DNA of 64,000 nucleotides from Sandaracinaceae bacterium (GTDB taxonomy: Bacteria > Myxococcota_A > Polyangia > Polyangiales > Sandaracinaceae), in assembly GCA_040218145.1 (NCBI GenBank), contig JAVJQK010000033.1, positions 310,001-374,000 of the forward strand. Reading direction: 5' to 3'. The notes beneath the pieces were generated by a model that was not told where the DNA came from, did not search any database, and was given only the letters and a program-made list of their open reading frames with translations. Positions 11,971 to 37,434 of the stretch are shown here, in pieces. How positions within the stretch are numbered: the first letter of the stretch is position 1; the number at the start of each line of letters is the position of its first letter. A program made the translations under genes and the position numbers.

Positions 11971-11977
11971 CGCGCGG

Positions 11978-11983: not shown

Positions 11984-12004
11984 TCGCGCCTCGATAGGCA
12001 CTAC

Positions 12005-12010
12005 CATGCT
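12005..12010 (+). promoter_or_regulatory. Candidate -10 element, leaderless double radical SAM gene
   Basis: CATGCT ends 5 nt before ATG 12016. With the minus-strand element at 11978-11983 it forms a compact divergent promoter pair. Confidence 0.35.
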
Positions 12011-12015
12011 CGCGA

Positions 12016-14283: not shown

Positions 14284-14336
14284 CGCGCCCGCCTTTCAAG
14301 GTTCGGGGAGGCCCGCCGTTGGCTCCTTTCGGGCCC

Positions 14337-17614: not shown

Positions 17615-18537
17615 GGCAGCACCTCCAGGCGCGTCGGCTGCACGCTCGACGGCGCGCCGCGCGCGGCCGCGATCTCGGCGTCGCCGTACACCTCGAGGTA
17701 GTCGGGCCGGACGCCGCGACAGCGGGCCCGGTCGGCGCAACCTTCGCAGGCGGGCACATGAACCTGCGGCGTGAGCTTGCTGCCCTCGAGGTCGAAGAGA
17801 TCATCGGGGGTGAGCACGCGGACGCGCTCCGCCGCCGGATCGTGCGCCCGATCCGCGTACGCCCCCAGCAGGCACCGTGGGAGGTGCAGCGAGCGCAGCG
17901 TCACGCCGAGCGCGTCGCCGACGTCGAACGCCTCGGCCATCACCTCCGCCACCCGCGTCATGCGGGGCAGCGACGCGATGGCGTCCCGGTTGCCGTCGGT
18001 GAGCGAGACCAGCCAGAGATCCGCGCGCCGCACGCCGCGCGCCTCGAGCCACCGGATGGCGTCCGGGAGGCGAGGCAAGGTGTCCGCTTTCAAGATCACG
18101 TCGGCCACGGGATCGAGGCCCGCCGCGGCGACGTGGCCGAGCCCCGCCACCATCGCGTCATAGGTGCCTGCGCGCCGGACGAGGGCCTCGTAGGGCTCAC
18201 GCAGGTGCGTGTGGATGGAGACGTGGAACGTCGTGGCCCCCGCCTCCACGAGCCGCTCGAGGTTGGGGCGATGGGCGAACAGGAGCCCGTTCGACTGCAC
18301 CTTGATGTCGCGGTAGCCGACCTGTCGCGCGGCCCTCACGAGCCCGAGCAGGTCGGTCCGGATGGTGGGCTCGCCGCCCGTGAAGCTCACGCGGTCGAAG
18401 CCCTCGGCGACGGCGGACTTCAGCGCGTCGAGCACGCGGCGGGTCGAGAGCGCGCGCCGACGCATCTCGGGCGTGATGGTGCAGTAGTCACACGCGAGGT
18501 TGCAGTCGTAGCCCAGGATGACGTCGAGGAGCGCCAT
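17611..18537 (-). CDS. Radical SAM protein of the local family
   Basis: A compact 308-residue enzyme. Cys12, Cys16 and Cys19 (CNLACDYC) bind the SAM cluster only a few residues from the N-terminus. SFTGGEPTIR, SNGLLFA and SIHTHLREPYE follow. The auxiliary cysteine in LPRCLLGAY and the C-terminal CEGCADRARCRGV (Cys264, 267, 273) plus YLEVYG match the signature shared with neighbouring radical SAM proteins and with the chimera at 19282. ATG 18537 is preceded by GGAGG and, 8 nt upstream, by TAAGCT. It is followed by the coupled ROK kinase. A peptide or small-molecule substrate is unknown. Confidence 0.87.
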   Translation of the reverse strand: MALLDVILGYDCNLACDYCTITPEMRRRALSTRRVLDALKSAVAEGFDRVSFTGGEPTIRTDLLGLVRAARQVGYRDIKVQSNGLLFAHRPNLERLVEAGATTFHVSIHTHLREPYEALVRRAGTYDAMVAGLGHVAAAGLDPVADVILKADTLPRLPDAIRWLEARGVRRADLWLVSLTDGNRDAIASLPRMTRVAEVMAEAFDVGDALGVTLRSLHLPRCLLGAYADRAHDPAAERVRVLTPDDLFDLEGSKLTPQVHVPACEGCADRARCRGVRPDYLEVYGDAEIAAARGAPSSVQPTRLEVLP

Positions 18538-18601: not shown

Positions 18602-19204
18602 GTGCACGGAGGGCATGGGTTGAGCGTCGACGAGAACGAGCGGTTGGGACGGCGTGATGCGCTCTTGGGTATCGCCGCGACGATCTCCACCGTAGCGGTG
18701 GCGGGCGCGAGCGTCGGAGTCGGCCTCGGCAGCGCTCGAGCGGACGACCGCGCAGAGGCGGAGGCCTCCTCACCTCCCCCCGCCCAACCCGACCCTCTCC
18801 ACGGCCTGCGGCAGCCCGACGAGGCGGTCCGCGCCCTCTTCGGCGACCTGCGGGGACGCGTGATCGAGGGCCACTGGCGAGTCGAGGCGGTGCACGCGGT
18901 CCGCGCCGGCGCCATCCCGGTGGTGCTCTCCATTCGCACCGGCGCGCGCTTCGCGGCGGAGGTCTTCCGCTGGGATGCGAGCGACCCGGAGCCGATCGGC
19001 CGCGCCGAGGGGCTCGCGCTGTACCTGGTCAACGGGGGCGACGGCCAGACCGCGACGGACGAGATGGCGGGGCTGGGCGTGCGCGCGCTCGGCCGGGCGC
19101 TCGACGCCCGGCTCGCGGAAGGCGCGTCGATCCCGCAGGGTCTGAGCACCCTCGGGGAGCGGTCCCGCGAGCACCCAGGCGGTGCGTTCCATGTGCCGAC
19201 CTGA
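18602..19204 (+). CDS. Tat-exported hypothetical protein
   Basis: A protein of up to 200 residues with a twin-arginine signal: GRRDALLGIAATIST, then a hydrophobic Ala/Val/Gly helix and a cleavage-like SARA-DD. Tat export implies folding, often with a cofactor, before secretion. The mature domain of about 150 residues has no recognised motif. Start choice: GTG 18602 follows TACCCT by 4 nt, but TTG 18620 has GGAGGG at ideal distance; both keep the Tat signal. It is divergent from the radical SAM-ROK pair and lies just before the chimeric oxidoreductase, so it may belong to the same pathway. Confidence 0.65.
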   Translation: MHGGHGLSVDENERLGRRDALLGIAATISTVAVAGASVGVGLGSARADDRAEAEASSPPPAQPDPLHGLRQPDEAVRALFGDLRGRVIEGHWRVEAVHAVRAGAIPVVLSIRTGARFAAEVFRWDASDPEPIGRAEGLALYLVNGGDGQTATDEMAGLGVRALGRALDARLAEGASIPQGLSTLGERSREHPGGAFHVPT

Positions 19205-19281: not shown

Positions 19282-20802
19282 ATGCCGGACGCCATCGAGC
19301 CGTCGCACGTCGCCCACCCGTCGGACGTCGCCGCGCGCGCTCAGCAGGGGGCGACGGCGCTCACCGTGTCGCTCTACGGGGCGCGGCCGCCGATCCACGA
19401 CTTCCACGCGGGAGAGGGTGACTTCGCCCGCGCCCTGGCGACGATCTCGGCCGTCCGCGCTCACGGGCTGCGCGCCGTGGTCTGGACCGAGGTGACGCGC
19501 AGCAACGCACGCAGCCTGCGCGAGCTGCCGAGCCTGCTCCGAGCGCGGGGCGTCGCGCGGTGGGTGCTCGCCTGGCCGCGCGCGGAGGGCGCGGGCTTCA
19601 CCTCCACCGTGCCGCGCTTCGGGCTCGCGGTCCCACCCACGCTCGCGGCCGTGAAGGCGGCGCGCGCCCTCGGCATCGACGTGCGCCTCGTCGGCTTCCC
19701 GCGCTGCGTGCTCGGCCCGTACTCCGAGCTGGCGGGCTCCGGCGGCGCCCAGCGCAGCTTCGACGCGCCGTGCGAGCGCTGCGGCGTCCGCGTGAAGTGC
19801 GCGGGCGTGGACGCCGCCTACCTCGCGCGCTTCGGCCCCGGGGAGCTGCACGCCATCGACGCGAAGCCCGAGGACGACGCTCCGCTGCGCGTCCTCCTGG
19901 TCGGCAGCGGGGGGCGCGCGCGGCGGCTCGCCGAGCGCCTCGGAGAGGTCTCCGGCCTCGCGCTGGTCGGCGTCACGTCGCCCAGCGCGGGCGGCGGAGG
20001 CTGGTGGGGCGCGGTCTCCGCGTTCGCCGAGCTGGACGAGGCGCTCGAGGCGACCCGACCCGACGCCGCCATCGTCGCCTGCGCGACGCCCGCGCATCGC
20101 GCCGCGGCCGAGGCCTGCGCGGCCCGGAGCGTCCCGGTCCTGCTCGAGAAGCCGGTCACGGCCCGCCCCGAGGACGCCGAAGCGCTCGCGGGCGCCTGGA
20201 TCAGCTGCGCTCTGCAGGAGCTGTTCGAGCCCGGCCTGGCGCCGCTGCTCACCCGCGAGGGGGCGCTCCGCTGGAGCCGCCGCGTGCCCGCGGAGTCGCC
20301 CGACGCGCCGAGCTCGTGGCACCGGGGCGCGCTCTTCGAGACCCTTCACCACGCGCTCACCCTCCCCTGCGCGGCGCGAGGACCGGTCGAGGAGGTGCTG
20401 AGCGCGACCTTCGAGGGCGAGCGGCGACCGACCCGGGTCGCGGCGCGCCTCCGCCACGCACGGGGCGAGACCGAGATCGACCTGGACTTCGACAGCCCCG
20501 TGGACGTGGCCCAGTTTTTTTCGGGGGGGCTCGAGTGGCGCCGCGAGGGCCGGTCGATCACCCGCGAAGGCGCCCCCTTCGAGCGCGGCGGGGCGGCCGA
20601 GACCGAGATGCTCAGGGCATTCCAACACGCTGTGATCCATGGAGAATCTCCCCCCGTGCCGCTCGCGCTGGGGGTCGACGTGTTGCGCGCCACGGGGCGC
20701 CTGCTCGAGGCGCTTCTGGAGGCGGGCGCGCCCCTCGAGCCGGGCGATCGACCCAAGCAATCGTCGGTTCACACGTACCCAACGGAGGGCTCGCGCCGAT
20801 GA
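19282..20802 (+). CDS. Chimera: radical-SAM-like barrel lacking cluster cysteines, fused to Gfo/Idh/MocA-type domain
   Basis: A 506-residue protein. Residues 25-185 align by eye with the later part of the neighbouring radical SAM barrels (VSLYGARPPIHD against their [29 protein letters not shown]). They end in Cys164, Cys167 and Cys173 (CERCGVRVKCAGV) and YLARFG, but the CxxxCxxC motif and GGEP are absent. From about 190 a Rossmann fold begins (VLLVGSGGRARRLAE) with LLEKPVTA, the hallmark of Gfo/Idh/MocA oxidoreductases. Radical chemistry is therefore unlikely; the barrel may bind the peptide while the second half acts as a dehydrogenase. A T7-C-G7 homopolymer at 20515-20529 lies in the coding region. 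Confidence 0.78.
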   Translation: MPDAIEPSHVAHPSDVAARAQQGATALTVSLYGARPPIHDFHAGEGDFARALATISAVRAHGLRAVVWTEVTRSNARSLRELPSLLRARGVARWVLAWPRAEGAGFTSTVPRFGLAVPPTLAAVKAARALGIDVRLVGFPRCVLGPYSELAGSGGAQRSFDAPCERCGVRVKCAGVDAAYLARFGPGELHAIDAKPEDDAPLRVLLVGSGGRARRLAERLGEVSGLALVGVTSPSAGGGGWWGAVSAFAELDEALEATRPDAAIVACATPAHRAAAEACAARSVPVLLEKPVTARPEDAEALAGAWISCALQELFEPGLAPLLTREGALRWSRRVPAESPDAPSSWHRGALFETLHHALTLPCAARGPVEEVLSATFEGERRPTRVAARLRHARGETEIDLDFDSPVDVAQFFSGGLEWRREGRSITREGAPFERGGAAETEMLRAFQHAVIHGESPPVPLALGVDVLRATGRLLEALLEAGAPLEPGDRPKQSSVHTYPTEGSRR

Positions 20803-25277: not shown

Positions 25278-26987
25278 GTGGCGCTCCCTCCCCTGCTCCT
25301 GGCGGCTCATGGCGACGGCGCCCGGCGCTGGGCCGAGGTGGCGAAGCGCTCGCGTCAGGTCGAGCTGCTCGCGGCGATCGATCTGGCCGCCGGGGGGGTC
25401 GAGGGGATCGAGGAGGTGCTCGCGGCGCGCCCCGACGCGGCCATCGCGGTCTGGGCCGCGGGCCCGCGCGAGGCGGCGCGCGTGGCCGAGCACCTGAAGG
25501 CCCACCCGGGCCCCGCGCTCCTCCACCCACCGCCCGCTCGCCCCCCGCCGGGCGACCACCTCCAGCTGGTCCACGGCTGGCTCACCCTCTCCGGCGTCGG
25601 CGCGCTCGAGCGGCTCTTCTCGTCTCGCGGCGTCGAGTCGGTGCGCCTGGAGGTGCGCGGCCTGCCCGAAGGCGCCGCGCCGGGCATCACCGAAGCATTG
25701 CAACACGCCATGACCGTCGTCCGGCGCTTCGGGCGCGACGTCGCGGTGGAGAGCGCGGTGCTCGCGACCGAGCACGAGCTGTCGGTGGAGCTCACCGTCG
25801 ACGGCCGGCCCTGGCACGTGAAGGTGGCCGTGCGGGGTCGGGAGCTCGACCTCGTCGTGCGCACGCGCGAGGGCGAGTACGGCTGGGCGAGCGATGGGGT
25901 GAGCGAGACGCTGCGCCGCCCGCGGGCGGAGCCGCGCGCCATCCCCGCGCTCCCGTGGGAGGAGCGGTGCCTGCGGCAGATCACGCACCCGGTGAAGGGG
26001 TGCACGCTGGCCGACGCGCGCGAGGTGACCCGGCTCGTGGACGAAGTGGAGCTGCAGCTCGGCCGGCGGCTTCCGCCCGATCACGTGATCCCGCGCGGGA
26101 GCGGGCTGGCCGCGCTCGGGCTGCGAGGCGAGGTGCCCGACGCCGCCCCGCTCGCGCCCACCGCGCCGCCCACCCCCACCCTGCGGCCGTCCACCTCGCT
26201 CGGGTTCGACGCGTTCGCCTACATGCACGGCCTGCTCCCGGCGGTGCGCGTCACGGTCGCGCCGCAGGACGAGGCGAAGGTCCGCGAGGCGCTCCCGGGC
26301 ACGGTGCTGCGACGAGAGCGCCGACCCGACGCGGGGCCTCCCGGGGAGCCGCGCGTGACGCTGTGCGCCGCGCGCGAGCCAGAGGCCGCCCGAGCGCTCG
26401 CTCGCCTCCAGGAGCCCACGTCGACCGACGCGCTGACCCGGCTCGGCGCCCTGCTCGGACACCCCGCGTGCTGCGTCCAGGCGTTCGCGGCGCAGGTCGA
26501 CCGGGCCGACGCCAGCTTCAACCGGCTGGCGGTCGCGACGCGCACCTCCGCGGGGCCCGGCCCGTGGCCCGCCGTGCTCGACGACACCGCCCTGAGGTTG
26601 CTCCCCCACTTCCCCTGCACCTACCGCTGCGAGCGCAGCAAGGAGCGCGCGATGGCGCTGCTGCGCGTGCTGGCCGACGAAGCACCCGCGCTCCACACGC
26701 GCGTCTCCGACTACCTGGGCGGGCCGGTCCTCTACTTCGACCAGGGCCGGCAGCTCCGCTTTCGCGGACACGTCGACGCCATGGCCATTCGCTACGAGGC
26801 CGTGTTCCTCCCGTGGCACGCGGACGACGCCTTCGCGCGGCTGGCCGGCGCGGTGGCCCAGGGCGACCGGCTGGTGCTCGGCGCCGACCACCTCAGCGTG
26901 TACGCGGCGGGCGAGCGGCTCTTCTCCCTGGACCGCACCGACCCGGGCCTGGGCCTCGTCTTCCCGTTCGGCGCGTTCGCTACGTGA
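25278..26987 (+). CDS. Chimera of dehydrogenase-like domain and DUF483-like domain, beside the Hxs cassette
   Basis: A 569-residue protein. Residues 1-200 follow the layout of the Gfo/Idh/MocA half of the chimera at 19282 (LLLAAHGDGARRWAEVAKRS; ARPDAAIAVWAAGPREAARV) but lack a clean GxGxxG, so NAD(P) binding is doubtful. Residues about 375-500 resemble DUF483: LGALLGHPACCVQAFA, then FPCTYRCERSKERA, a Cys/His-bearing pattern. GTG 25278 was chosen because the homology to the Rossmann part begins there. The end overlaps the HxsC-like gene by 8 bases, tail to tail. Its position suggests a role in handling the peptide product. Confidence 0.7.
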   Translation: MALPPLLLAAHGDGARRWAEVAKRSRQVELLAAIDLAAGGVEGIEEVLAARPDAAIAVWAAGPREAARVAEHLKAHPGPALLHPPPARPPPGDHLQLVHGWLTLSGVGALERLFSSRGVESVRLEVRGLPEGAAPGITEALQHAMTVVRRFGRDVAVESAVLATEHELSVELTVDGRPWHVKVAVRGRELDLVVRTREGEYGWASDGVSETLRRPRAEPRAIPALPWEERCLRQITHPVKGCTLADAREVTRLVDEVELQLGRRLPPDHVIPRGSGLAALGLRGEVPDAAPLAPTAPPTPTLRPSTSLGFDAFAYMHGLLPAVRVTVAPQDEAKVREALPGTVLRRERRPDAGPPGEPRVTLCAAREPEAARALARLQEPTSTDALTRLGALLGHPACCVQAFAAQVDRADASFNRLAVATRTSAGPGPWPAVLDDTALRLLPHFPCTYRCERSKERAMALLRVLADEAPALHTRVSDYLGGPVLYFDQGRQLRFRGHVDAMAIRYEAVFLPWHADDAFARLAGAVAQGDRLVLGADHLSVYAAGERLFSLDRTDPGLGLVFPFGAFAT

Positions 26988-28011
26988 CGGGCGCCATCTC
27001 GTCCCAGCCGAAGCGCGAGAGGTAGTTGGCCCAGACGCCCTCGCACACGGAGTCGTACTTGCAGTCGCGGCAGGCGTCGCGTTTGACCCGCACCTCCGCG
27101 TCGAGGTCGGCGCGGCGGATCTGCACGAGGTCCCCGTCCGGCCCGGTGCGCGGCCCCTCTCGCTCGGCGCGGAGCGTGACGTCGTGGCTGCCGAGGTCCG
27201 GCGGCTCGTAGTGGGCGTAGCTCTCGACGTAGCCCCGGTTGAAGTCGGGCAGGCCTTCGGTCGTGCAGAGCGGGATGTCGACGAAGAACGCCATCACCCG
27301 CGACTCGCGCTCACGCTGCTCGGCCACGAACGCGCGCGCCTGCGCGGCGATGTCCGTGTACCGAGGGAAGATCTTCTCGAAGTACGTGTCGGCGCGGCCG
27401 TTGGCCTGCATCACGTTGAAGACCACCTGCTGGACCCCGAGCCCGCGCAGGAAGCGGTAGATGTCGCCGATCTCCGGCAGGTTGCGCTTGGTGACCACGG
27501 TCGACGTGTGCAGCTCGACCCCGCGCGGCAGGTAGCGGGCCACGGTGCGGATCCCGTCGACGGTCTGCGCGAACGAGCCGGGGGTGCGGGTCAGCCCCTC
27601 GTGGAGCTTCTCCGTGTGGCCGTGGATGCTGACGTAGAAGCGGCGCATCCCGGCCGCGAGCAGCTTCCGCGTGTAGCGGTCGTAGCTCAGCGCCCGGCCG
27701 TTGGTCATCACGCTCACCCGACGCGCGCCCGCGTCCTTGGCCATCTTGGTCCACTTGGGCAGCGACGGATTCGTCGTCGGCTCGCCGCTCGTGAAGCAGA
27801 TCTCCTCCGCGCCCGGGTTCTGCTCGAGGATCCAGCGGACGAGCGCGTCGTCGGTGCGCGCGTTGGTGACCTTCCGGCCCTCGCGGTCCTCCTCCATGCA
27901 GAAGATGCAGTTGTTGTTGCACACCTGCCCGGTGAGCACGTGGACGCGCTCGCGCTTCTCCGCGATGCGCTCGCGGATGTCCGTCCGCGCGTCGGGCGCG
28001 CCGGCGCTCAC
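26980..28011 (-). CDS. Radical SAM maturase in the HxsC position of the His-Xaa-Ser cassette
   Basis: A 343-residue enzyme expected to use SAM and a 4Fe-4S cluster on the neighbouring precursor. Cys31, Cys35 and Cys38 (CNNNCIFC) bind the cluster. CFTSGEPTTNP, MTNGRALS and SIHGHTEKLHE follow. The auxiliary cysteines are in IPLCTTEGL and in CRDCKYDSVCEGV (Cys314, 317, 323) with YLSRFG near the end. The GTG start overlaps the precursor's TGA by four bases (GTGA), which couples translation tightly. HxsC proteins share the CNNxC lead-in; the N-terminal domain of typical HxsC is missing here, so the orthology is tentative while the radical SAM call is firm. Confidence 0.85.
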   Translation of the reverse strand: MSAGAPDARTDIRERIAEKRERVHVLTGQVCNNNCIFCMEEDREGRKVTNARTDDALVRWILEQNPGAEEICFTSGEPTTNPSLPKWTKMAKDAGARRVSVMTNGRALSYDRYTRKLLAAGMRRFYVSIHGHTEKLHEGLTRTPGSFAQTVDGIRTVARYLPRGVELHTSTVVTKRNLPEIGDIYRFLRGLGVQQVVFNVMQANGRADTYFEKIFPRYTDIAAQARAFVAEQRERESRVMAFFVDIPLCTTEGLPDFNRGYVESYAHYEPPDLGSHDVTLRAEREGPRTGPDGDLVQIRRADLDAEVRVKRDACRDCKYDSVCEGVWANYLSRFGWDEMAPVT

Positions 28012-28325
28012 CAGCTGCCGTGGCTGCCGTGGCTGCCGTGCGACCCGTGGCTGCCGTGGCTGCCGTGACTGCCATGCGAGCCGTGGCTGCCGTGGCTGCC
28101 GTGCGAGCCGTGGCTGCCATGGCTGCCGTGCGAGCCGTGGCTGCCGTGCGAGCAGTGCTGGCCGGGAGGTGCGGTTCCGTCGCCCGGCGCGAAGCCGTTC
28201 TCGTCCGCGTTGGCGCGAGCCCGCTCGGAGATCTCTCGCTGGTCCGCGTCGAGCACGCCCGCAGCGTCACGCGTGAAGCTCGGCAGCTCCTCGAGGTCGT
28301 CCGACTGGTTCTGGTCCTCGGCCAT
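28008..28325 (-). CDS. hxsA: His-Xaa-Ser repeat precursor peptide (HxsA-like RiPP precursor)
   Basis: A 105-residue protein. Residues 1-56 are an acidic leader-like region (LEELPSFTRDAAGVLDADQR) without signal peptide. Residues 57-104 are sixteen His-X-Ser triplets, HCS then fifteen HGS, and Trp105 is the last residue. Cys58 is the only cysteine. His-Xaa-Ser repeat proteins (HxsA) are the presumed substrates of the paired radical SAM enzymes HxsB and HxsC; both kinds of gene flank this one. GGGAG lies before the ATG and a TAAGCT element 18 nt upstream. The repeat could alternatively bind metal ions. No exporter gene was seen nearby. Confidence 0.85.
   Translation of the reverse strand: MAEDQNQSDDLEELPSFTRDAAGVLDADQREISERARANADENGFAPGDGTAPPGQHCSHGSHGSHGSHGSHGSHGSHGSHGSHGSHGSHGSHGSHGSHGSHGSW
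28014..28157 (-). repeat. 9-bp tandem repeat encoding (His-Xaa-Ser)16
   Basis: Sixteen 9-base units within the precursor gene. Units vary at wobble bases and in Ser codon choice (AGC or TCG), so amino-acid identity is kept better than DNA identity, which argues for selection on the peptide. Copy number could change by slippage in 3-residue steps without a frameshift. Confidence 0.9.
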
Positions 28326-28343
28326 CTACCACTCCCGTCCGCG

Positions 28344-28349
28344 AGCTTA
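28344..28349 (-). promoter_or_regulatory. Candidate -10 element of the precursor gene
   Basis: TAAGCT (minus strand) lies 18 nt before ATG 28325 and overlaps the stop codon of the protease gene. It would give the precursor its own short-leader transcript, so it can outnumber the enzymes, as is usual for RiPP precursors. Confidence 0.4.
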
Positions 28350-29189
28350 GCGCGACCTTGGGGAAGCTGTCACGCCGTTGGACCCGATGCGTGACCTCGA
28401 CCGCTGGGGGAGCCCCCAGGGCGCGTCGGCGGAGGCGAAGCCGAGGTCTCGGCCGAAGTCCCCTCCCAGGGTCCTGACGAGCCACGACGCGTTCAGCGGA
28501 GCGTCGGTGGCGGCGTAGACCGACTCGGGGGACCCGCGGGAGAGCCCGCCGAAGAGCACGCCCACCACCGCCTCCGCGCCGCCGTGTCGGAGCAGGGCCG
28601 GGCCCCCCGAGTCGCCGATCCGGGTCCTGGGTCCGCCCGGCGAAGCGGGCGCGGTGACGAAGGTGGCCCCGTCGTGGGCGACGATCTGGTTGGGCCCGGA
28701 GAGCCGCTCCAGCGTCCCGACCAAGGCCGGTCGACGATGCCAGCCCACCAGACGGACCGTGCGCGCGTGCCACCAGGCCGGTGAGAGCGACGGCGGCGCG
28801 AGCAGCACGGGGAGCGGTCGCGCGGCGGTGACGGGGCGCTCGAGGCGCAGCACGGCGAGGTCGTGGGCGGGGCGCGTCCCGCTCCCTGCTGGTCCGGCTC
28901 CGCATGACGTGGGGCGATCGTAGGCGAGCGGGTGCACGGCGCATCGCGTGACCGCGACTCGCTCCCGCCCTCCGACCCAGACGGACCATGGGCTGCGCTC
29001 CTCCACGCAGTGCGCCGCGGTCAGCACCGCGTCGCGGGCGATCAGCGTCCCGGTGCACTCGCTGGAAACGAACACCACGGCCGCGTCCGAGCTCGCCTCG
29101 CCGAGCGGATGAGCGAGCCCGCTGCCCGCCAACGGATGCCCGCAAGCCGACAGGAGCGTGGCCGCGAGCGCGGCTGCGATCGAGGGCAT
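28347..29189 (-). CDS. Trypsin-like (S1) serine protease lipoprotein inside the Hxs cassette
   Basis: A 280-residue protein with signal and lipobox LLSAC at the N-terminus. The S1 triad is readable: His in LTAAHC, Asp in HDLAVLRLERP, Ser in RIGDSGGPALL. The lipid anchor places it at the periplasmic or outer face. It sits between hxsB and the precursor gene in the same orientation, 34 bases after hxsB and 21 before the precursor. It could trim the exported peptide, but the leader has no obvious tryptic junction with the HGS core, so this is inference. A second S1 protease is encoded divergently from the cassette at 31578. Confidence 0.85.
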   Translation of the reverse strand: MPSIAAALAATLLSACGHPLAGSGLAHPLGEASSDAAVVFVSSECTGTLIARDAVLTAAHCVEERSPWSVWVGGRERVAVTRCAVHPLAYDRPTSCGAGPAGSGTRPAHDLAVLRLERPVTAARPLPVLLAPPSLSPAWWHARTVRLVGWHRRPALVGTLERLSGPNQIVAHDGATFVTAPASPGGPRTRIGDSGGPALLRHGGAEAVVGVLFGGLSRGSPESVYAATDAPLNASWLVRTLGGDFGRDLGFASADAPWGLPQRSRSRIGSNGVTASPRSR

Positions 29190-29223
29190 GGCCGTGAGAC
29201 GCGCGAGCGCCCTGGACGATCCG

Positions 29224-30720
29224 TCAGCCCTCGGGGGCGTGCAGGAAGTGCTCGCGAGCGCGGATGGTCGTCCAGCGGTCGAAGGCCTCGAGCACGTGAG
29301 GCTCCGCGTCGGCCAGCTTCTCGAAGAGGTAGTCCTGGATGCCCTTGTGGACCGCGCAGATGTTCGACTCGCGCATCCGACCGAAGACGCTGCCCTGCGT
29401 CTTGTGGTTGTGGGTGGTCTGGATGCCGCAGTACGGATTGTACGTGCACGACACGCAGTCGGGCTGGCTGTCCAGGTTCGACGCGATCACCATCGCGCGC
29501 ACGGTCGGGTGGCCGACGATGTCCCGGTACTTCGACTCCGCGACGTGCCCGAGCCGGAAGGTCTGGTCCCCCTGCGCGGCCAGCATCCGGCCCTCGTCGC
29601 AGGTGTAGACGCTGCCGTCGTAGCTGTAGGCGAGCTGCCCGATGCCGGCCCCCGCGGGGCTGCGGATGTCGAGGAAGTTCGGGTCCTCGCCGCGCAGGAT
29701 CTTGGTGAGGAAGATCGCGCCGAAGCGCTCGATCATCTGCACGCCCTGGCGGTTCTTCTCCAGGATGTAGTCCGTCGCGTTCCGATAGAAGTCGAGGTAC
29801 GCCGCGCGCGGGTACTCGACCGTCTTCTTCGTCTTGCCCGCGAAGCCGAAGGGATCGATCGGCCGCAGGAAGAGCGCGCGGCAGCCGAGGTCGGCGTAGG
29901 TGTCGACGATCTCCTTCCAGCGCGGCAGCGCGGCGCGGGTCGTCGTGAGCAGGGCCTCCACGTGATAGAGCGTCGGGTCGAGCCCGCGGTCCGTGTAGGC
30001 CTGGTTGATCTTCGGGATCCAGTGCGAGACCGCGTCGTAGCTCGAGAGCGTCGGCAGCTTGCGCTGCTTGTCGTGCAGCTCCTTCGGCCCGTCGATGCTC
30101 GTGCAGATCTGGACCTTGTGGTCGAGGAGGAAGTCGAGCTTCTCGTCGTCCATCAGCGCCAGGTTGGTCACGAGGGTGAACTCGAGGGTCTTGCCGATCG
30201 CCTCGTTCTTCTCCTTGGCGTAGTGGACGATGTGCTTCAGCACCTCGAAGTTCACCAGCGGCTCGCCGCCCTGGAACTCGATGGTGATGCCCGGGCTGGT
30301 CGAGGAGAGCGCGAGGTCCACCGACTGCTCGGCGGTCTCCTTGGTCATGTCCGTGTGCGTCGCGTCCATGTCGGCCCGCGACGCGTGACAATACACGCAC
30401 GTCTCGTTGCACCTCAGCGTGATCACCATCACGTGCAGATTCGGGCCGTAGCCGAGGAAGCTCTTGCGGCGGGCCAGCGCCTCGCGGGCTGCGGTCTCGT
30501 CCCAGCCCTGCCGCAGGAAATTCTTGTCGGCCAGCTCGGCCTTCAGGGGGCTGCCGTCCTCGAGCGCGCCGGTCGCGAAGCGGGTGAAGCCCTCGTCGCT
30601 CAGCACCATCCAGCGGCCCTCGAGGTTGGTGATCAGCGTCCGATCGGGGCCGATCCGTCGGAAGCGGAAGAACGCCTGGCTCGTGGTGTCGAGCTTCGGG
30701 CGGAGGTCCAGAAGCTGCAT
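29224..30720 (-). CDS. hxsB: His-Xaa-Ser system radical SAM/SPASM maturase HxsB
   Basis: A 498-residue radical SAM enzyme. Residues 15-85 form a small N-terminal domain (FFRFRRIGPDRTLITNLEG, WMVLSDEGF) like that at the start of HxsB proteins and suited to leader recognition. Cys104, Cys108 and Cys111 (CNETCVYC) bind the SAM cluster; EFQGGEPL and TSIDGPKELHDKQR follow. A SPASM domain carries auxiliary-cluster cysteines, including CDEGRML, CVSCTYNPYC (from Cys422) and Cys455. Length and order fit HxsB. The ATG starts one base after the stop of the small gene upstream, so it is co-translated. The reaction on His/Ser residues is not known to me. Confidence 0.9.
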   Translation of the reverse strand: MQLLDLRPKLDTTSQAFFRFRRIGPDRTLITNLEGRWMVLSDEGFTRFATGALEDGSPLKAELADKNFLRQGWDETAAREALARRKSFLGYGPNLHVMVITLRCNETCVYCHASRADMDATHTDMTKETAEQSVDLALSSTSPGITIEFQGGEPLVNFEVLKHIVHYAKEKNEAIGKTLEFTLVTNLALMDDEKLDFLLDHKVQICTSIDGPKELHDKQRKLPTLSSYDAVSHWIPKINQAYTDRGLDPTLYHVEALLTTTRAALPRWKEIVDTYADLGCRALFLRPIDPFGFAGKTKKTVEYPRAAYLDFYRNATDYILEKNRQGVQMIERFGAIFLTKILRGEDPNFLDIRSPAGAGIGQLAYSYDGSVYTCDEGRMLAAQGDQTFRLGHVAESKYRDIVGHPTVRAMVIASNLDSQPDCVSCTYNPYCGIQTTHNHKTQGSVFGRMRESNICAVHKGIQDYLFEKLADAEPHVLEAFDRWTTIRAREHFLHAPEG

Positions 30721-30721
30721 C

Positions 30722-30940
30722 TCAGGCGCCTCCCCGGCTGCGAATGGTCAGACCGAGCGCGAAGTTGCTCAGCTCGTCCGCCACCCGCCGCTCCCTCGCG
30801 GCGGTCCCCGACTCGACGCGGACCACCCAGTAGTCGTCCTCTTCGTCGCGAGACAGAGTGGCGTAGCGGTCGAAGGTCTTGATCGCCTCGTCGACCGACT
30901 CGCCGCGGTAGAGCGTGCGGTGGAAGCGCAGCTCCCTCAC
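30722..30940 (-). CDS. Second, shorter HxsD-like protein
   Basis: A 72-residue protein starting at GTG 30940, which overlaps the TGA of hxsD by four bases. Its layout echoes HxsD: an N-terminal strand, LYRGESVDEAI, an Asp-Arg pair (TFDRY), a hydrophobic strand DDYWVVRV and a C-terminal helix DELSNFALGL. This matches LYPLEALYGAAYVFIDR and GELANELVSAAWR in the upstream protein. I infer a paralogue that could form a complex with it or help present the precursor to HxsB. Too short for a firm family call. Confidence 0.7.
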   Translation of the reverse strand: MRELRFHRTLYRGESVDEAIKTFDRYATLSRDEEDDYWVVRVESGTAARERRVADELSNFALGLTIRSRGGA

Positions 30941-31479
30941 GCGCCCTCTCCTTCTGCCTCGGCACTGGCTGCCTCGGCACTGGCCGCTTCGGCACTGGCC
31001 GCCTCGCCCTGGGCGTCCTTCTTCTTGGCGTACTTCTCCTCCCAGCTCATCGCGATGCCGAGCGGGTCCTCGAACGCCTCCTCGGTGAAGTCGAAGTCCT
31101 CGAGATCGTCGAGCGAGGGCGGGCCCATCGCGCCGGAGATGGCCTGCATCGTCACCGACTCGATCTGCGCCCGGTTCTCCTGGGTGATCTGGTGACGCCA
31201 GGCGGCGCTGACCAGCTCGTTGGCGAGCTCCCCCACCATGGCGCGCAGCGCCTCGGCCGCGTCGTCCTCCCCGAGCTGCTTCGGCGTCAAGACGACACGC
31301 AGCGTCTTCGGATCCGGCCGATCGAGGAAGACGTAGCAGCGGTCGATGAAGACGTAGGCGGCTCCGTAGAGCGCCTCGAGGGGGTAGAGGCTCGCGTCCA
31401 CGTCGAGGATGGCGCGCGAATCGTCGAGGTCGATCCGCGCCACGTCCTCGGGGATGCCTTCGATCGCGGTCGTGCTCAT
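30937..31479 (-). CDS. hxsD: His-Xaa-Ser system protein HxsD-like
   Basis: A 180-residue protein, longer than the usual HxsD of about 100. Residues 25-130 carry the family pattern: DASLYPLEALYGAAYVFIDR, a strand pair (CYVFLDRPDPKTLRVVL), and a long helix with ELANELVSAAWRHQIT and MQAISGAMG. HxsD is a conserved non-enzymatic member of the Hxs four-gene cassette. The extra C-terminal tail is acidic and ends in a repeat (EAASA three times). ATG 31479 was chosen because the longer upstream frame is Arg-rich and unlike a protein. First gene of the cassette; a TGCTACTCC sequence upstream might be an extended -10. Confidence 0.78.
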   Translation of the reverse strand: MSTTAIEGIPEDVARIDLDDSRAILDVDASLYPLEALYGAAYVFIDRCYVFLDRPDPKTLRVVLTPKQLGEDDAAEALRAMVGELANELVSAAWRHQITQENRAQIESVTMQAISGAMGPPSLDDLEDFDFTEEAFEDPLGIAMSWEEKYAKKKDAQGEAASAEAASAEAASAEAEGEGA

Positions 31480-31577: not shown

Positions 31578-33086
31578 ATGCGCAGCTGCAGCTCGCTCGC
31601 GTGCCTCCTCCTGTTGGCCTGCCAGCCCGACGTGGGCGCCTCCCCCGCCGCCGTCGTCTACGGCGAGGACGGCCGCACCGAGCCATACGCCCACCCGTCC
31701 GCGGCCCTGCGCGCAGTGGCGAGGAGCGCGATCGCGATGAAGGTCGGCGCCCGCCACGTGGACGACAGCGCCCCCTCCGACGTGCGCATCACCTACACCC
31801 GGACCCTCAGCGAGGCGCAGGACCTCTGCGCGGGAGAGCCCTTCGAGGATCAGATCGAGCCGGGGACGTGCTCGGGCACGCTGATCGACGAGCGTCACCT
31901 GCTGACGGCGGGTCACTGCATGGACACGGCCCGCGACTGCGACGAGTCGGTCTGGGTCTTCGGCTTCGAGGTCGACGCGGCGGGCGCGATCGCGCCGCTC
32001 GAGCGGGACGACGTCTACGCCTGCGCGGGCGTCATCGCGTACTTCGACGACGGCGAGGTGGACCACGCGGTGGTGCGCCTCGATCGCCCGGTCGTCGGGC
32101 ACACCCCGGTCGAGATCCGCCTCGAGCCGCGCGGCCTCTCGCCGGGCACGCCCATCGCGCTCATCGGACACCCCAACGGGCTCCCGATGAAGATCGACTC
32201 GGGCGGCGAGGTGACCTGGACGTCGGGGGATGGCCTCAGCGCGCGGGGCACGGTCGACGCGTTCAACGGCAACTCGGGCTCGGGCGTCTTCGACCACGAC
32301 GGGCGCCTGGTCGCGCTGCTCCGGGGCGGAGAGACCGACTACGTCGACGCCGGCGGCTGCAACGTGGTGAACGTCATCGACCCACCGCCCGCGGACGACG
32401 GCGAGGGCCTGACCTACGTCCGGCCGGCGCTCGAGGCGTTCTGCGCGAGCCCTGGCGTCGTCTCGCCCCTCTGCGACTGCGGCGGCGAGCCGTGCGTCCC
32501 GGGGCTCGAGGGCGACGCGTGCGCCGACGCCTACGTCATCGAGCCCGTGTCCCAGACGCTGACGGGCACCTTGACGGGCTACGCGCCGCTGACGAGCGGG
32601 AGCTGCGGCGGCGCCGGACCGGACCGCGTCTTCTCGTTCACCCTAGGAGCAGAGACCGGGTTCGAGGCGCGGAGCGAGGGCTTCGACAGCGTGATGTACC
32701 TGCGCGCGGGCTGCGACGGCGCGGAGCTGGACTGCCACGACGACGTGGACCGCGACACCGACCGCGGCTCGCGGCTGAGCCGCGTGCTCGCGCCCGGGAC
32801 CTACCACCTCTTCCTGGACGCCTACGACGGGGACGTCGGCCCCTACACGCTCACGCTGACCTTCGAGCGAGAGGCGGACCTCCCGGACGCCGGCCCCCCG
32901 GTGGTCGACGCGGGCACACCGTCCGAGCCGGACGCGGGCGCTCCGGTCGCGGACGCCGGCGGCTCACCTCCCGCGAGCGGAGGATGCCGCGCCTCGAGCG
33001 GCGGCGGCCGCGGCGAGCCCTGGCTCCTGGTCGCGCTCGCGCTGCTCTTCCTGCGACCGCGTAGAAGTTCCATCCCACGCGATTGA
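31578..33086 (+). CDS. S1-type serine protease lipoprotein with MYXO-CTERM-like tail
   Basis: A 502-residue secreted protease. Lipobox LLLLAC follows a short signal. The triad is His in LLTAGHC, Asp in DHAVVRLDRP and Ser in NGNSGSGVF, closer to V8/trypsin-like enzymes than to classical trypsin. A C-terminal beta domain (residues about 310-430) resembles pre-peptidase-type domains. The end has Asp/Ala/Pro-rich linkers, GGCRASSGGG, a hydrophobic helix WLLVALALLFL and RPRR: a MYXO-CTERM-like sorting signal. A lipobox and a C-terminal sorting tail together are unusual. Divergent from the Hxs cassette. Confidence 0.85.
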   Translation: MRSCSSLACLLLLACQPDVGASPAAVVYGEDGRTEPYAHPSAALRAVARSAIAMKVGARHVDDSAPSDVRITYTRTLSEAQDLCAGEPFEDQIEPGTCSGTLIDERHLLTAGHCMDTARDCDESVWVFGFEVDAAGAIAPLERDDVYACAGVIAYFDDGEVDHAVVRLDRPVVGHTPVEIRLEPRGLSPGTPIALIGHPNGLPMKIDSGGEVTWTSGDGLSARGTVDAFNGNSGSGVFDHDGRLVALLRGGETDYVDAGGCNVVNVIDPPPADDGEGLTYVRPALEAFCASPGVVSPLCDCGGEPCVPGLEGDACADAYVIEPVSQTLTGTLTGYAPLTSGSCGGAGPDRVFSFTLGAETGFEARSEGFDSVMYLRAGCDGAELDCHDDVDRDTDRGSRLSRVLAPGTYHLFLDAYDGDVGPYTLTLTFEREADLPDAGPPVVDAGTPSEPDAGAPVADAGGSPPASGGCRASSGGGRGEPWLLVALALLFLRPRRSSIPRD

Positions 33087-33134
33087 AGACAAAGTACGCA
33101 ACCGTCCATGACGCGCACCGATGCGGGGCGTGTC

Positions 33135-34247
33135 ATGTCGAAATCCGCCCTTCTTTCGCTCGCCGCGTGCCTCCTGCTGGCCTGCGGCTCCCGCAGCCAG
33201 CTCCACGTCCCACCCCCGAACGAAGCGAGCGTGGCCGGCCCTCGCTCCGCGCGCCTGGAGGCCCGCTTCACACATTCCTGTCACGCAGACGAGGACGGCC
33301 GCGTGCGCTGCTGGGGCCGGAACACCCGCGGCGCGCTGGGCCCCGGAGTGTCGATCGCCGAGACGCCGGTCGAGCTCCCCCTCGGTGGCTTCATCACCGC
33401 GGTCATCGTCGGGCAGTCCCACACCTGCGGCCTGCGAGACGACGGGGACGTAGTGTGCTTCGGGCAGGTCGGGACGGCGCTCGCGCTGGACGCGCCCCGC
33501 GTCGTGCTGCGCGGCGCGCTGGCCGTCGGGTCGAGCCTGCTCTCGGTCTGCGGCGTGATGGCCGACGGCGGCGTCGAGTGCGCGGGCATGGCGCCGACCG
33601 CCCCCGACGGCTGCGGGGCGCTCGAGGCCCACGCGGCGCGGCCCGTCGAGGGGCTGAGCGACGTGGTCGCGCTCGAGGGAGGTGACGCCCACATGTGCGC
33701 CCTCGACGCGCGCGGGGAGATCCGATGCTGGGGCTGCAACGCGGGCGGGCAGCTCGGGGACGGCACCTTCGAGCCGCGCTCGGCGGCCCGTCGGGTCGTC
33801 GGCTTGCCGCCCGCGACTGCCCTCTCGAGCGGCGACCGACACGTCTGCGCGCTCGACGCGCAGGGAGGCGCGTGGTGCTGGGGCGACTGGGATCTCGCGC
33901 CCACCCCGGTCCCCGTCGCGCTGGATCTTCCGCCGGCCCGCGCGGTGCTCGCGCGCGGCCCCGGCACGGTCTGCGCCGTGCTCGAGGGGGGCACGGGTCC
34001 CGACGATGGCACGGTTCGTTGCAACCTCCAGTTCCTCGACGAGCCGACGGCGGGCGAGTGTCTCTACGCCATCGAGCGCCCGGCGAGCACGGTCCCGGGG
34101 CTGACCGGCGTGCGGGGGCTGACCGGCCACGCGTACGGGCTCTGCGCCGAGACCGAAGACGGCGTGTCGTGCTGGGGCTGCAACCACCTGGGCACGGTCG
34201 GTGACGGCTCGTTCGCGCTCCGCGCGGCGCCGGTGTCGGTGCTCTGA
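33135..34247 (+). CDS. RCC1-repeat lipoprotein
   Basis: A 370-residue surface lipoprotein: signal with lipobox LLLAC, then tandem RCC1-type blades, each with a Cys-x-Trp-Gly motif (RCWGRNTRGALG, RCWGCNAGGQLGDGT, WCWGDWD, SCWGCNHLGTVGDG), predicting a beta propeller. Such proteins are abundant in Polyangiales and are thought to bind partners at the surface. ATG 33108 in frame, preceded by a TACGCA hexamer, would add nine residues before the signal. Same direction as the protease gene, 48 bases after it. Confidence 0.85.
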   Translation: MSKSALLSLAACLLLACGSRSQLHVPPPNEASVAGPRSARLEARFTHSCHADEDGRVRCWGRNTRGALGPGVSIAETPVELPLGGFITAVIVGQSHTCGLRDDGDVVCFGQVGTALALDAPRVVLRGALAVGSSLLSVCGVMADGGVECAGMAPTAPDGCGALEAHAARPVEGLSDVVALEGGDAHMCALDARGEIRCWGCNAGGQLGDGTFEPRSAARRVVGLPPATALSSGDRHVCALDAQGGAWCWGDWDLAPTPVPVALDLPPARAVLARGPGTVCAVLEGGTGPDDGTVRCNLQFLDEPTAGECLYAIERPASTVPGLTGVRGLTGHAYGLCAETEDGVSCWGCNHLGTVGDGSFALRAAPVSVL

Positions 34248-34260
34248 CGCGCGTCGCGGG

Positions 34261-34455
34261 TCAGCGGGCCAGGCGCAGGTCCTCGGCCCGGAGCCACACC
34301 TTCGCGCCCCGGTCCAGGATCACGCCGACCCGGATGCCGTCGCGCGCCGTGCTCGGGCCGATCCAGAAGACCTCGCCGCCCAGCGGGCGTGGCCCGTCGT
34401 CGGGCACCACGTGCACACGGGCCCCCACCTCAAGCTCTGTCACCGCGCTCGGCAT
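34261..34455 (-). CDS. Small hypothetical protein, SH3-like
   Basis: A 64-residue protein of strands and short turns (GARVHVVPDDGPRPLGGEV, IRVGVILDRGAKVWLRAEDL), consistent with a small beta barrel of KOW/SH3 type. No signal peptide. It is convergent with the RCC1 gene (13 bases apart) and divergent from the metalloprotease gene. Short and without recognised family, but the codon pattern looks real. Confidence 0.5.
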   Translation of the reverse strand: MPSAVTELEVGARVHVVPDDGPRPLGGEVFWIGPSTARDGIRVGVILDRGAKVWLRAEDLRLAR

Positions 34456-34572
34456 CCCCGAAACAGCCCGTACCCTTCCCCGGAGGCGACGCCAGCCCGT
34501 GGCGCGACGTGATCGATCGTCGGCGTGAATTGGTGGAGAGGCCCGGCCCAGGCTCGCGCGCGTTCCAGGGTG

Positions 34573-34578
34573 TAATGT
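34573..34578 (+). promoter_or_regulatory. Candidate -10 element, leaderless metalloprotease gene
   Basis: TAATGT ends 7 nt before ATG 34586; no Shine-Dalgarno sequence. Confidence 0.4.
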
Positions 34579-34585
34579 CCAGCGA

Positions 34586-35656
34586 ATGGGACGGCTTCTC
34601 GCGGTGTGGCTCGCGCTCGCGTCGCTCGCGCCGAGCGCCGCGTCCGCGTGGTGTCAGAGCCTCTCGGTGACGCGCGCGACCGGGCGCTGCGACGCGCCGT
34701 GTCTCTCGCTGAGCGACTTCTCGGCGGAGGAGATCGCGGAGCGCCGCATCGCGCCGCTCGCGTGGCGTCAGCCCTGCATCCGCTGGACGCTGCACCCTCG
34801 TGGGACCGACGACCTGCCGCGGGACGCGGTCCAGCCCGTGATCGCGGGCGCGTTCTCCCGCTGGGAGAGCGTGGACTGCGGCGGGGCGCCGGTCGGCTTT
34901 CGTGTGGAGGAGCGCGAGGTCCCCGGGCTGCTCTGCGACTACGTGGACTTCGACCGCGATCGCCCGGACATGAACGTGATCCTCTTCGCCGAGGACTGGT
35001 CCGATCGGCGGCTCGACCCGCGCGCGTTCGCGCTGACGACCACCTGGTTCGACGTCCCGACGGGCGAGATCCTCGGCGCGGACATCGAGCTCAACGACGA
35101 GCGCCGCACCTGGGCCGTCTGCCCGGAGGACGGCTGCCGCGACGGCCGGATCGACCTCGAGAACGTCGTCGTGCACGAGCTGGGGCACTTCTTCGGCCTC
35201 GCGCACTCCCCCGATGACGCCCTCGCCACGATGTGGGCCTGCGCCGAGGCGGGGGAGACCTTCAAGCGCACGCTCGAGGCCGACGACCGCGAGGGCTGGT
35301 GCGCCATCTACGCGGGCGCCCTGGAGAGCACGTGCAGCCCGCCCCCCGCGGGCGAGCTCCCGCTCCGCTGCACCTTCGTCGGCGACGACTGCGCCGAGAC
35401 CGAGCCCGCCGCGTGTGGGTACTGCGAGGACCTCGGGAGCGGTCCGGTCTGCACCATCCCGTGTGAGTCCGACCCCGACGTCTGTCCGGACGGCTTCGCG
35501 TGCGAGCCCCTCGGCCCGGGGGACGCGCCCCGCTGCGTGGCGACGGGCTGCGGTTGTCGGGTGACGCCGCGGTCCCCCAGTGCGAGCTGGGCGTTCGCGC
35601 TCCTGGCGCTCTCTGCCCTGGCGCGCCGTCGACGCGGGTCTCAGCGCCGCCGGTAG
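34586..35656 (+). CDS. Secreted matrixin-like metalloprotease with MYXO-CTERM-like tail
   Basis: A 356-residue protein with signal peptide (LLAVWLALASLAPSAASA). The catalytic zinc motif HELGHFFGLAH gives three His ligands and the general base Glu, as in matrixins/metzincins; upstream WFDVPTGEILGADIEL is the edge strand and calcium-like region. A Cys-rich segment follows (CGYCEDLGSGPVCTIPC). The C-terminus has GCGCRVTPR, a hydrophobic helix (WAFALLALSAL) and ARRRR, a MYXO-CTERM-like signal for surface sorting. It overlaps the end of the convergent radical SAM-methyltransferase gene by 16 bases. Confidence 0.87.
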   Translation: MGRLLAVWLALASLAPSAASAWCQSLSVTRATGRCDAPCLSLSDFSAEEIAERRIAPLAWRQPCIRWTLHPRGTDDLPRDAVQPVIAGAFSRWESVDCGGAPVGFRVEEREVPGLLCDYVDFDRDRPDMNVILFAEDWSDRRLDPRAFALTTTWFDVPTGEILGADIELNDERRTWAVCPEDGCRDGRIDLENVVVHELGHFFGLAHSPDDALATMWACAEAGETFKRTLEADDREGWCAIYAGALESTCSPPPAGELPLRCTFVGDDCAETEPAACGYCEDLGSGPVCTIPCESDPDVCPDGFACEPLGPGDAPRCVATGCGCRVTPRSPSASWAFALLALSALARRRRGSQRRR

Positions 35657-37434
35657 CGGAGCATCCAGAGCGTGCTCGTGCCCGGACCGACGTCGTGCAC
35701 GGCGAGTTGCTCCCAGGTCGCGCCGTCGAAGTGGTGGGTCGCGTCGGCCGCGGTGTCGTTCCGGTAGTGCTCGAACGCCGCGCTCGATCCCTCCGCGCGG
35801 GCCGCGTGCGGGCGGGTGCGCGCGAGCCCGAAGGCGGAGTCGTCGACCACCGTCAGCTCGCCGCCCGACCGCAGCGCGCGCGCCGCCTTGCGGACGAACG
35901 CCGCGGGATCCGGGAGGTGGTTCCAGCTCCGGAGCGCGAGCACGTGGTCGAGGCCGTCCGGGTCGGGGCGCCAGTCCGCGTCCGTGCCCACCCACACGTC
36001 GGCCTCGGGGTGGCGCGCCCGCACCGCCTCGATCCGGCTCGGCTCGGGATCGAAGGCCGCGTAGCGGATGGCGCCGGCCTCGATGCGCGCGGAGAGCACC
36101 TCCCCGTAGCGCCCCTCGCCGCAGCCCACGTCGAGCACGTCGCCCTCGATCGTCTCCAGCAGCGCGCGCACCCGGGCGTCGTCTCGCCCGAAGACGTCCT
36201 CCTCGAGCCGCGGCTCGAACAGCCCGGTGCACGCGCCGCGCTCCGGGCACCCGTCGCACAGCGCGCTCCGGACCAGCGGCCGGAGGTCGGTGGTGAAGTC
36301 GTCCGGCGCGTCCTTGCGCGAGACGTCGAGGTAGACCTGCCCCCGCTCGAGCTTGAGGGCGCGCATCTCGGCGTCGGAGAAGTCGCGACTCTCGGCAAAG
36401 AAGCGCGCCACCCGCGCGCCGTTCTGTACGAACAGGTGCCGCCCCGGCTCCCACGGCGTCACGCCGCCCTCGCGCAGCACGCAGCGCCCCTCGGGGGCGT
36501 CGGCGGTGACGAGCCCGTCGAAGACGTAGTTGAAGGAGTTGCTGCGGGGCCGGTCGCGGAGCGGCGTCAGCTCCTCGTGCCCGAAGACCGCGTCGTATCC
36601 GCGGTAGAGCCCGGGGCACGGGCCGCTCAGGCTGCATCCGTGGCAGGTCTCTTCGGGCTGCACCTTGTTGAGATCGTCGACCGGGTAGAAGTCCGGCTCG
36701 CCGACCTCGATCATCGTCGCGAAGCGGTGCGTCTTGAGATCGTCGAAGCGGTCCTCGTAGCCCTGCATCAGGCACAGCGGGATCGCGCCGTGCGTGACCC
36801 GCTCGACCACGCCGAGCGACGCCGCGTGATCGATGGCGTCCTTGACTCGGTCGGCGACGAGCGAGACCCGCGGCATCAGGTGCTCGAAGAGCTTCTCGCC
36901 CCCGCCCTTGGGCTCGACCATCGAGAACTTGATGCGCACGTCGGGGTACGGGGCGACGGCGTCGACGACCCCGCGCAGGTGCGCGACGTTGTGGCGCGTG
37001 ATCACGCAGTTGACGGTGAAGTCGAGCCCGCGCCCGCTCAGCACCGCGACGGCGCCGAAGGTCTGCTCGAACGCCTCCGAGCGGACCATCAGGTCGTGCA
37101 CCTTCGCGGTGCCGCCGTGGAGCGACAGGTAGACGTAGCGCAGGCGCCGCTCCATCAGCTGCTCGGTCAGCGCGGGGTAGCTGAGCATGCGCCCGTTGGT
37201 CACGAGCCCGAAGTCCATGCCGAGGCGCGCGACGTGCTCGGCCCAGCGGACCAGCTCCGGTCGGATCGTCGGCTCCCCGCCGCTGAGCACGACCATGCTG
37301 TGGCCGAGCTGCTTCGCTCGCTCGATCTTGGCGTGCACCTCGCTCGCCTCCGCGTCGATGTGGCGGACGTCGAGCGTGTGACAGAAGGAGCAGTGGTCGT
37401 TGCAGCCGTAGCCGACCTTGATGAGCGCCTTCAT
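35641..37434 (-). CDS. Radical SAM protein fused to a class I methyltransferase
   Basis: A 597-residue fusion. Cys11, Cys15 and Cys18 (CNDHCSFC) bind the SAM cluster directly after the start. [17 protein letters not shown] and SLHGGTAKVHD follow. Auxiliary cysteines: IPLCLMQGYE, CHGCSLSGPCPGL with YDAVFG, and a further CDGCPERGACTGLF near residue 360. The last 200 residues are a SAM-dependent methyltransferase (DVLDVGCGEGRYGEV, FDPEPSR, HVLALRSWNHLPD). One polypeptide could thus do radical chemistry and ordinary methylation on the same substrate. ATG 37434 is preceded at 9 nt by TACCCT. It shares both signatures with the HxsC-like enzyme. Confidence 0.88.
   Translation of the reverse strand: MKALIKVGYGCNDHCSFCHTLDVRHIDAEASEVHAKIERAKQLGHSMVVLSGGEPTIRPELVRWAEHVARLGMDFGLVTNGRMLSYPALTEQLMERRLRYVYLSLHGGTAKVHDLMVRSEAFEQTFGAVAVLSGRGLDFTVNCVITRHNVAHLRGVVDAVAPYPDVRIKFSMVEPKGGGEKLFEHLMPRVSLVADRVKDAIDHAASLGVVERVTHGAIPLCLMQGYEDRFDDLKTHRFATMIEVGEPDFYPVDDLNKVQPEETCHGCSLSGPCPGLYRGYDAVFGHEELTPLRDRPRSNSFNYVFDGLVTADAPEGRCVLREGGVTPWEPGRHLFVQNGARVARFFAESRDFSDAEMRALKLERGQVYLDVSRKDAPDDFTTDLRPLVRSALCDGCPERGACTGLFEPRLEEDVFGRDDARVRALLETIEGDVLDVGCGEGRYGEVLSARIEAGAIRYAAFDPEPSRIEAVRARHPEADVWVGTDADWRPDPDGLDHVLALRSWNHLPDPAAFVRKAARALRSGGELTVVDDSAFGLARTRPHAARAEGSSAAFEHYRNDTAADATHHFDGATWEQLAVHDVGPGTSTLWMLRYRRR

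Follow-up and report, generated by a model that had tools for sequence, protein, structure and literature searches.

What is made by a gene cassette in which two radical S-adenosylmethionine (SAM) enzymes accompany a peptide built of His-Gly-Ser (HGS) repeats, and which genes belong to its pathway? The question is raised by a contig of Sandaracinaceae bacterium (assembly GCA_040218145.1, contig JAVJQK010000033.1), of which positions 310,001-374,000 of the forward strand, a stretch of 64,000 nt referred to here as the window, were analysed; six minus-strand open reading frames (ORFs) at window positions 26980-31479 make up the cassette. An earlier note had described it as a diverged His-Xaa-Ser (Hxs) system of the ribosomally synthesized and post-translationally modified peptides (RiPPs), with an expanded gene set that included an added protease and an added HxsD paralogue. 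The reading favoured here, with a probability of about 0.6, is that the cassette is the HxsA4/HxsC4 branch of the Hxs RiPPs within a larger, partly scattered pathway, in which the HGS peptide would be radical-modified and then exported by twin-arginine translocation (Tat).

All six ORFs lie where the earlier note had placed them, and the GTGA overlaps (28008-28011 and 30937-30940) and the 1-base gap ahead of hxsB are exact; the array is tight at these junctions and slightly looser around the protease gene, which is separated from hxsB by 34 bases and from the peptide gene by 21. Families were assigned from NCBIfam and Pfam profile scores, compared with the cut-off of each model, and five of the six proteins gave matches to the NCBIfam Hxs models far above chance. 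HxsD (30937-31479, 180 aa) reaches 49.5 bits with TIGR03976 (cut-off 50, E 4e-13); the HxsD-related protein HxsD2 (30722-30940, 72 aa, GTG start) scores 72 bits with NF038315 (cut-off 41), and the radical SAM/SPASM enzyme HxsB (29224-30720, 498 aa) 557 bits with TIGR03978 (cut-off 370). A trypsin-like protease is encoded at 28347-29189 (PF00089, 65 bits), followed by the precursor peptide HxsA4 (28008-28325, 105 aa; NF038313, 82.5 bits, cut-off 55) and the second radical SAM enzyme HxsC4 (26980-28011, 343 aa, GTG start; NF038332, 606 bits, cut-off 500). Five of the six genes are the Hxs A4/C4 variant already modelled in NCBIfam (HxsD, HxsD-related, HxsB, HxsA4, and HxsC4), and these matches bear out the assignment to an Hxs-type system.

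The wider distribution was surveyed in 318 Polyangia genomes. HxsC4 exceeds its cut-off in 70 of them, so the cassette is no diverged singleton. The small second HxsD, rather than being an addition, is a regular part of the variant that lies between hxsD and hxsB in most loci; having its own NCBIfam model, it is also no novelty. In the surveyed loci hxsD-hxsD2-hxsB is the constant unit, and the precursor and hxsC4 genes come next in many loci and stand alone elsewhere. The full order D-D2-B-A4-C4 recurs in L034, L035, L036, L037, and L045 and in the Enhygromyxa loci L127 and L128. HxsC4 (counted at E up to 1e-60) was found in 76 genomes, HxsB in 104, and HxsA4 (counted over the model cut-off) in 92; of the 76 HxsC4 carriers all but one (75) have HxsB, as do 88 of the 92 HxsA4 carriers. 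The genes for HxsC4 and HxsB are nevertheless often megabases apart (e.g., in G284).

The cassette belongs to a larger co-inherited set, to which the window contributes three more genes: one for a fusion of a radical SAM enzyme with a methyltransferase, one for a radical SAM enzyme of 611 aa, and one for a protein with a Tat signal (the Tat-signal protein). The earlier note overlooked these extra genes, which lie outside 26980-31479; the protease and HxsD2 are not such additions. The fusion (35641-37434, minus strand, 597 aa) joins a radical SAM domain (PF04055) to a class I methyltransferase (PF13649); no NCBIfam model reaches its cut-off with it. It occurs in 77 of the 318 genomes, 75 of which have HxsB. 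Among 61 fetched HxsB loci with an hxsD gene, 15 have a homologue (48-61% identical) immediately ahead of hxsD and on its strand, or 17 when two contig-edge fragments are included; this strict count leaves out the weak matches that gave a raw count of 21. In the window a four-gene block on the plus strand (31578-35656, with one small minus-strand ORF inside) separates the fusion from hxsD by 4 kb, and in the sister genus G313 hxsD is immediately preceded by the end of the fusion gene. The block is likely an insertion, and the fusion is best read as a displaced member of the hxsD operon. The 611-aa enzyme (10135-11970, minus strand) was counted in the 180 genomes of the order and found in 59, HxsB accompanying it in 56. 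The Tat-signal protein (18602-19204, plus strand, 200 aa; RLGRRDALLGIAATISTVAVAGA) has no Pfam or NCBIfam family; it is present in 87 of the 318 genomes, 82 of them with HxsB, and among the matches listed 31 of 39 homologues carry the Tat signal. Enhygromyxa salina has compact clusters (L127, L128) in which the genes for D, D2, B, A4, and C4 share one place with those for the fusion and the Tat-signal protein.

The Tat-signal protein gains weight from the precursors themselves, some of which carry a Tat signal of their own (for example, RRDFLSSSSLLLLTLGTSTLAQA). Such precursors are found in most of the lineages that have HGS precursors and lack the Tat-signal protein (families f14, f19, f21, f27, and f32), whereas none of 40 precursors from genomes with the Tat-signal protein has one; counted by genome, the signal is present in 7 of 11 without the protein and in 0 of 31 with it (p 1e-5). 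The precursor of G001 has a hydrophobic stretch and no clean Tat motif. From this pattern the mature peptide is inferred to work outside the cytoplasmic membrane. The most likely order would be modification in the cytoplasm first and Tat export after, some lineages using a signal on the peptide itself and others the aid of the separate Tat-signal protein; metal binding by the closely spaced histidines would be a first guess at its role outside the membrane. In Tat hitchhiker complexes, a partner bearing the signal exports a signal-less protein in trans, and the Tat-signal protein may supply export in the same manner, by analogy; this is the least certain step of the scheme. A contender with appreciable weight, short of even odds, is that the protein has nothing to do with export. 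It would then be either an enzyme or scaffold that is itself exported and makes use of the modified peptide, or a substrate in its own right for the 308-aa enzyme described below and related radical SAM enzymes. It has its own conserved domain of about 110 residues, and it is flanked more often by small radical SAM genes than by hxsA4, both of which fit that explanation; the restriction of precursor Tat signals to genomes where the protein is missing does not.

The substrate is expected to be HxsA4, in which 15 perfect HGS units (28014-28148) precede a C-terminal Trp; the (HGS)15-Trp array, read from the sequence at 28011-28148 on the minus strand, is the likely modified region. Because the repeat uses mixed codons (AGC/TCG/AGT for Ser, CAC/CAT for His, GGC/GGG for Gly), it is maintained by selection on the protein and is not a product of simple DNA slippage. 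Precursors of relatives have about 8 to 52 repeats, end in HGSW or HGQW, and vary in the leader; the longest array is that of the G144 precursor (L106, 8059-8754, plus strand), whose 52 repeats are about three times the usual number, and 41 are found in a related genome (L162). Across the repeats of every precursor examined, His and Ser are equally invariant. The core has a single Cys, in HCSHGS, where several of the relatives' precursors have Ala, Ser, or Gly instead, so the target of modification must be His, Gly, Ser, or Trp; a Cys thioether of the ranthipeptide or sactipeptide type is ruled out as the general chemistry by the same replacements.

Radical modification of the HGS peptide is the natural reading of the gene set. 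The cysteines of HxsB for the radical SAM cluster (C104/C108/C111) and the SPASM domain (C422/C425/C431) are conserved in relatives, as are CNNNCxFCMEEDR and C249/C314/C317/C323 of HxsC4. HxsB would modify the HGS units sequentially, most likely by joining the His ring to the Ser C-beta two residues on. The first choice, held tentatively and well short of an even chance, is a three-residue His-Ser cyclophane in each unit, because links of this sort have precedents: HaaB and ScaB link His C2 to a C-beta at i/i+2, and MscB links Phe to Ser C-beta (PMC11002830). Further modifications would be added by HxsC4, the fusion, and the 611-aa enzyme, and the methyltransferase domain of the fusion suggests methylation too.

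By profile HxsB lies outside the known cyclophane-former families, at 50 bits with XyeB (cut-off 450) and 59 with YhhB (cut-off 445); the second HxsB of the same genome reaches 46 bits with FxsB (cut-off 370). Since thioether formers and sulfatase maturases are the closer matches of HxsB by profile score, the main rival chemistry is that HxsB oxidizes Ser in each unit, as in the formation of formylglycine, or modifies Gly, and leaves His without a cross-link. With the sulfatase maturase model, the HxsB proteins encoded in this genome reach 91 and 108 bits, above the cyclophane formers, and oxidation of Ser to formylglycine is the reaction of anaerobic sulfatase maturases; such chemistry would leave unexplained why His is as invariant as Ser in all precursors, and it is considered unlikely. 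Less probable still is that the radical SAM enzymes act elsewhere and HxsA4 is no more than a repeat protein of a metal-binding or collagen-like type. His at every third residue would bind metals, and the collagen model PF01391 matches HxsA4 at 31.8 bits (cut-off 27.2); that match is one of periodicity only, following from Gly at every third residue in a repeat without Pro, and a collagen-like HxsA4 was rejected on these grounds. The position of hxsA4 directly after hxsB in many loci and the near-universal company of HxsB (88 of 92 genomes) also count against a plain repeat protein.

The protease remains to be placed. It has an intact His-Asp-Ser triad and a lipoprotein signal, and no genome other than the two of the window species has it intact; in G313 all that is left is a piece of 79 aa that lacks the catalytic core, next to an intact 15-repeat precursor, and in no other surveyed locus is the protease adjacent to the cassette. 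Between the window genome and its conspecific metagenome-assembled genome (MAG), Sandaracinaceae bacterium MED-G138 (contig SHBB01000238.1; G314), the protease gene has 7 nonsynonymous and 4 synonymous differences, whereas hxsB, hxsC4, and hxsA4 together have 0 and 19; the ratio of nonsynonymous to synonymous change per site (pN/pS) is 0.71 for the protease and 0 for those three, and the protease is the sole one of the six genes with an excess of amino-acid change. Because it is species-limited, truncated in G313, absent beside other loci, and rich in amino-acid change, the protease is a passenger outside the Hxs system. That it is instead a working part of a six-gene system, for instance in leader removal, is highly improbable: its place between hxsB and hxsA4 on the same strand and its intact triad speak for such a part, and its distribution, the G313 remnant, and the substitution pattern speak against it, quite apart from a lipoprotein signal by which it would act outside the cytoplasm.

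HxsD and HxsD2 are, from profile and predicted structure, paralogues: the profile comparison gives 93.7% (E 2e-7), and the model of HxsD, a beta-alpha-beta-beta-alpha core with a long helix (predicted local distance difference test score, pLDDT, about 98 in the core), shares its core fold with the model of HxsD2 (pLDDT 96.5). An assignment to PqqD-type winged-helix domains, the RiPP recognition element, was considered and is not favoured, since the models of both proteins show the beta-alpha-beta-beta-alpha fold instead. In Foldseek and VIA-align searches no match had an E under 0.001 and the best Z was about 7 to 9; eIF2-alpha and KH domains, type III secretion chaperones, and RNA polymerase dimerization subunits gave middling matches, none of them telling. 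The proposed role of HxsD and HxsD2 is that of small binding partners, by which HxsA4 would be presented to HxsB.

Several points weigh against the proposed pathway of radical modification followed by Tat export. HxsB scores nearer to the thioether-forming and Ser/Cys-oxidizing SPASM enzymes (PapB, 119 bits; sulfatase maturase, 91) than to the cyclophane formers XyeB (50) and YhhB (59), and the Foldseek and VIA-align searches gave no clear structural relative for HxsD or HxsD2. The literature found reports no modification of any Hxs peptide and no purpose for one. G160, G188, and G278 have HGS precursors and neither a Tat signal on them nor the Tat-signal protein; of these three MAGs, two are rated 94% complete. 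The co-occurrence of HxsC4, the fusion, the Tat-signal protein, and HxsA4 with HxsB across the 318 genomes (Fisher p 1e-45 to 1e-56) carries p-values that are overstated, since related genomes are not independent.

Other radical SAM genes of the window keep company with Hxs loci. Homologues of a 308-aa radical SAM enzyme (17611-18537, minus strand) recur beside Hxs loci and the Tat-signal protein, and those of a 755-aa double radical SAM protein with the motifs CPFRCAHC and CNNHCTFC (12016-14283, plus strand) recur near Hxs loci. Adjoining the gene for the Tat-signal protein, a plus-strand gene at 19282-20802 fuses a radical SAM-like domain without CxxxCxxC to a Gfo/Idh/MocA oxidoreductase domain. 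Convergent with hxsC4 is a gene for a 569-aa protein with an HPACC motif (25278-26987, plus strand; PF04467, DUF483, 16.7 bits, below cut-off), full-length homologues of which occur only within the family (G309, G313); it was considered as a possible member of the pathway.

The same genome has a second Hxs cassette (L074, G000:C70:235000-254000, at 8982-14822) with D, D2, HxsB (518 bits), and an HGS precursor that has a different leader and ends in HGQW; three more radical SAM genes follow in place of hxsC4, and L091 and L092 have a similar layout. Near it, at 5192-6472 on the minus strand of L074, a gene for an aKG-HExxH-type peptide beta-hydroxylase (TIGR04267, 100 bits) is flanked by the gene for a further HxsD-like protein and by a radical SAM gene of 617 aa; homologues occur in 10 surveyed genomes. 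A further group of radical SAM genes (L076, G000:C7:105000-123000), some with two radical SAM motifs, has no evident HGS peptide. A contig labelled as a Klebsiella pneumoniae MAG (L187) has a D-D2-B set, in which HxsB shares 54% identity with that of the window; the bin is probably mislabelled or contaminated.

The prediction of Hxs systems from genomes dates back years, and the Hxs core of this locus is already known as an NCBIfam variant. Nothing was found in the papers and models searched on the co-inheritance of the fusion, the 611-aa enzyme, and the Tat-signal protein, on the split layout of the genes, on the protease as a passenger, or on the complementary Tat signals, and no useful paper linking Tat export to radical SAM RiPPs was found in the literature searched. 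For Polyangia at large it is tentatively proposed, at less than even odds, that an exported HGS peptide is served by at least four scattered, co-inherited radical SAM enzymes (HxsB, HxsC4, the fusion, and the 611-aa enzyme), with Tat export in cis, by a signal on the precursor, or in trans via a dedicated partner that would carry the modified peptide where this has no signal. The survey gives a fuller parts list for Hxs systems, identifies the protease as the gene to omit, names a cultured carrier with a compact cluster (Enhygromyxa salina), and offers a first pointer to the destination of the product. It also describes a RiPP pathway whose genes are co-inherited although they do not remain in one cluster, and such a pathway would escape cluster-based genome mining.

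Among known systems, the triceptides (MscB, HaaB, and ScaB) share the aromatic-Xaa-Ser spacing, and His-to-C-beta links are known for them (PMC11002830); HxsB is outside the triceptide enzyme families by profile, HxsA4 has many tandem units, and only the His-Gly-Ser spacing fits. In TvgA, a radical SAM enzyme acts on many sites of a core built of Thr-Val-Gly-Gly repeats (PMC9062424; PMC11002830). HxsA4 likewise pairs a repeated core with a radical SAM enzyme, its modification being predicted from sequence; the residues and enzymes differ, and the tvg cluster has its own membrane-associated transporters, with no Tat partner described. With the classical Hxs set (HxsA/B/C/D, TIGR03976-TIGR03978) the window shares an HxsB well over the cut-off and a His-Xaa-Ser repeat precursor accompanied by two radical SAM enzymes; HxsD scores just under its cut-off. 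Unlike that set, the window has an extra HxsD-related protein and a repeat that is strictly HGS and Trp-terminated, and it has HxsC4 instead of HxsC (TIGR03977, 90 bits, cut-off 267.9), so membership is claimed for the A4/C4 variant and not for the classical set. NCBIfam has models for none of the three co-inherited proteins (the fusion, the 611-aa enzyme, and the Tat-signal protein); its A4, C4, and D-related models (NF038313, NF038332, and NF038315) are all three exceeded, and the window cassette is a member of that variant.

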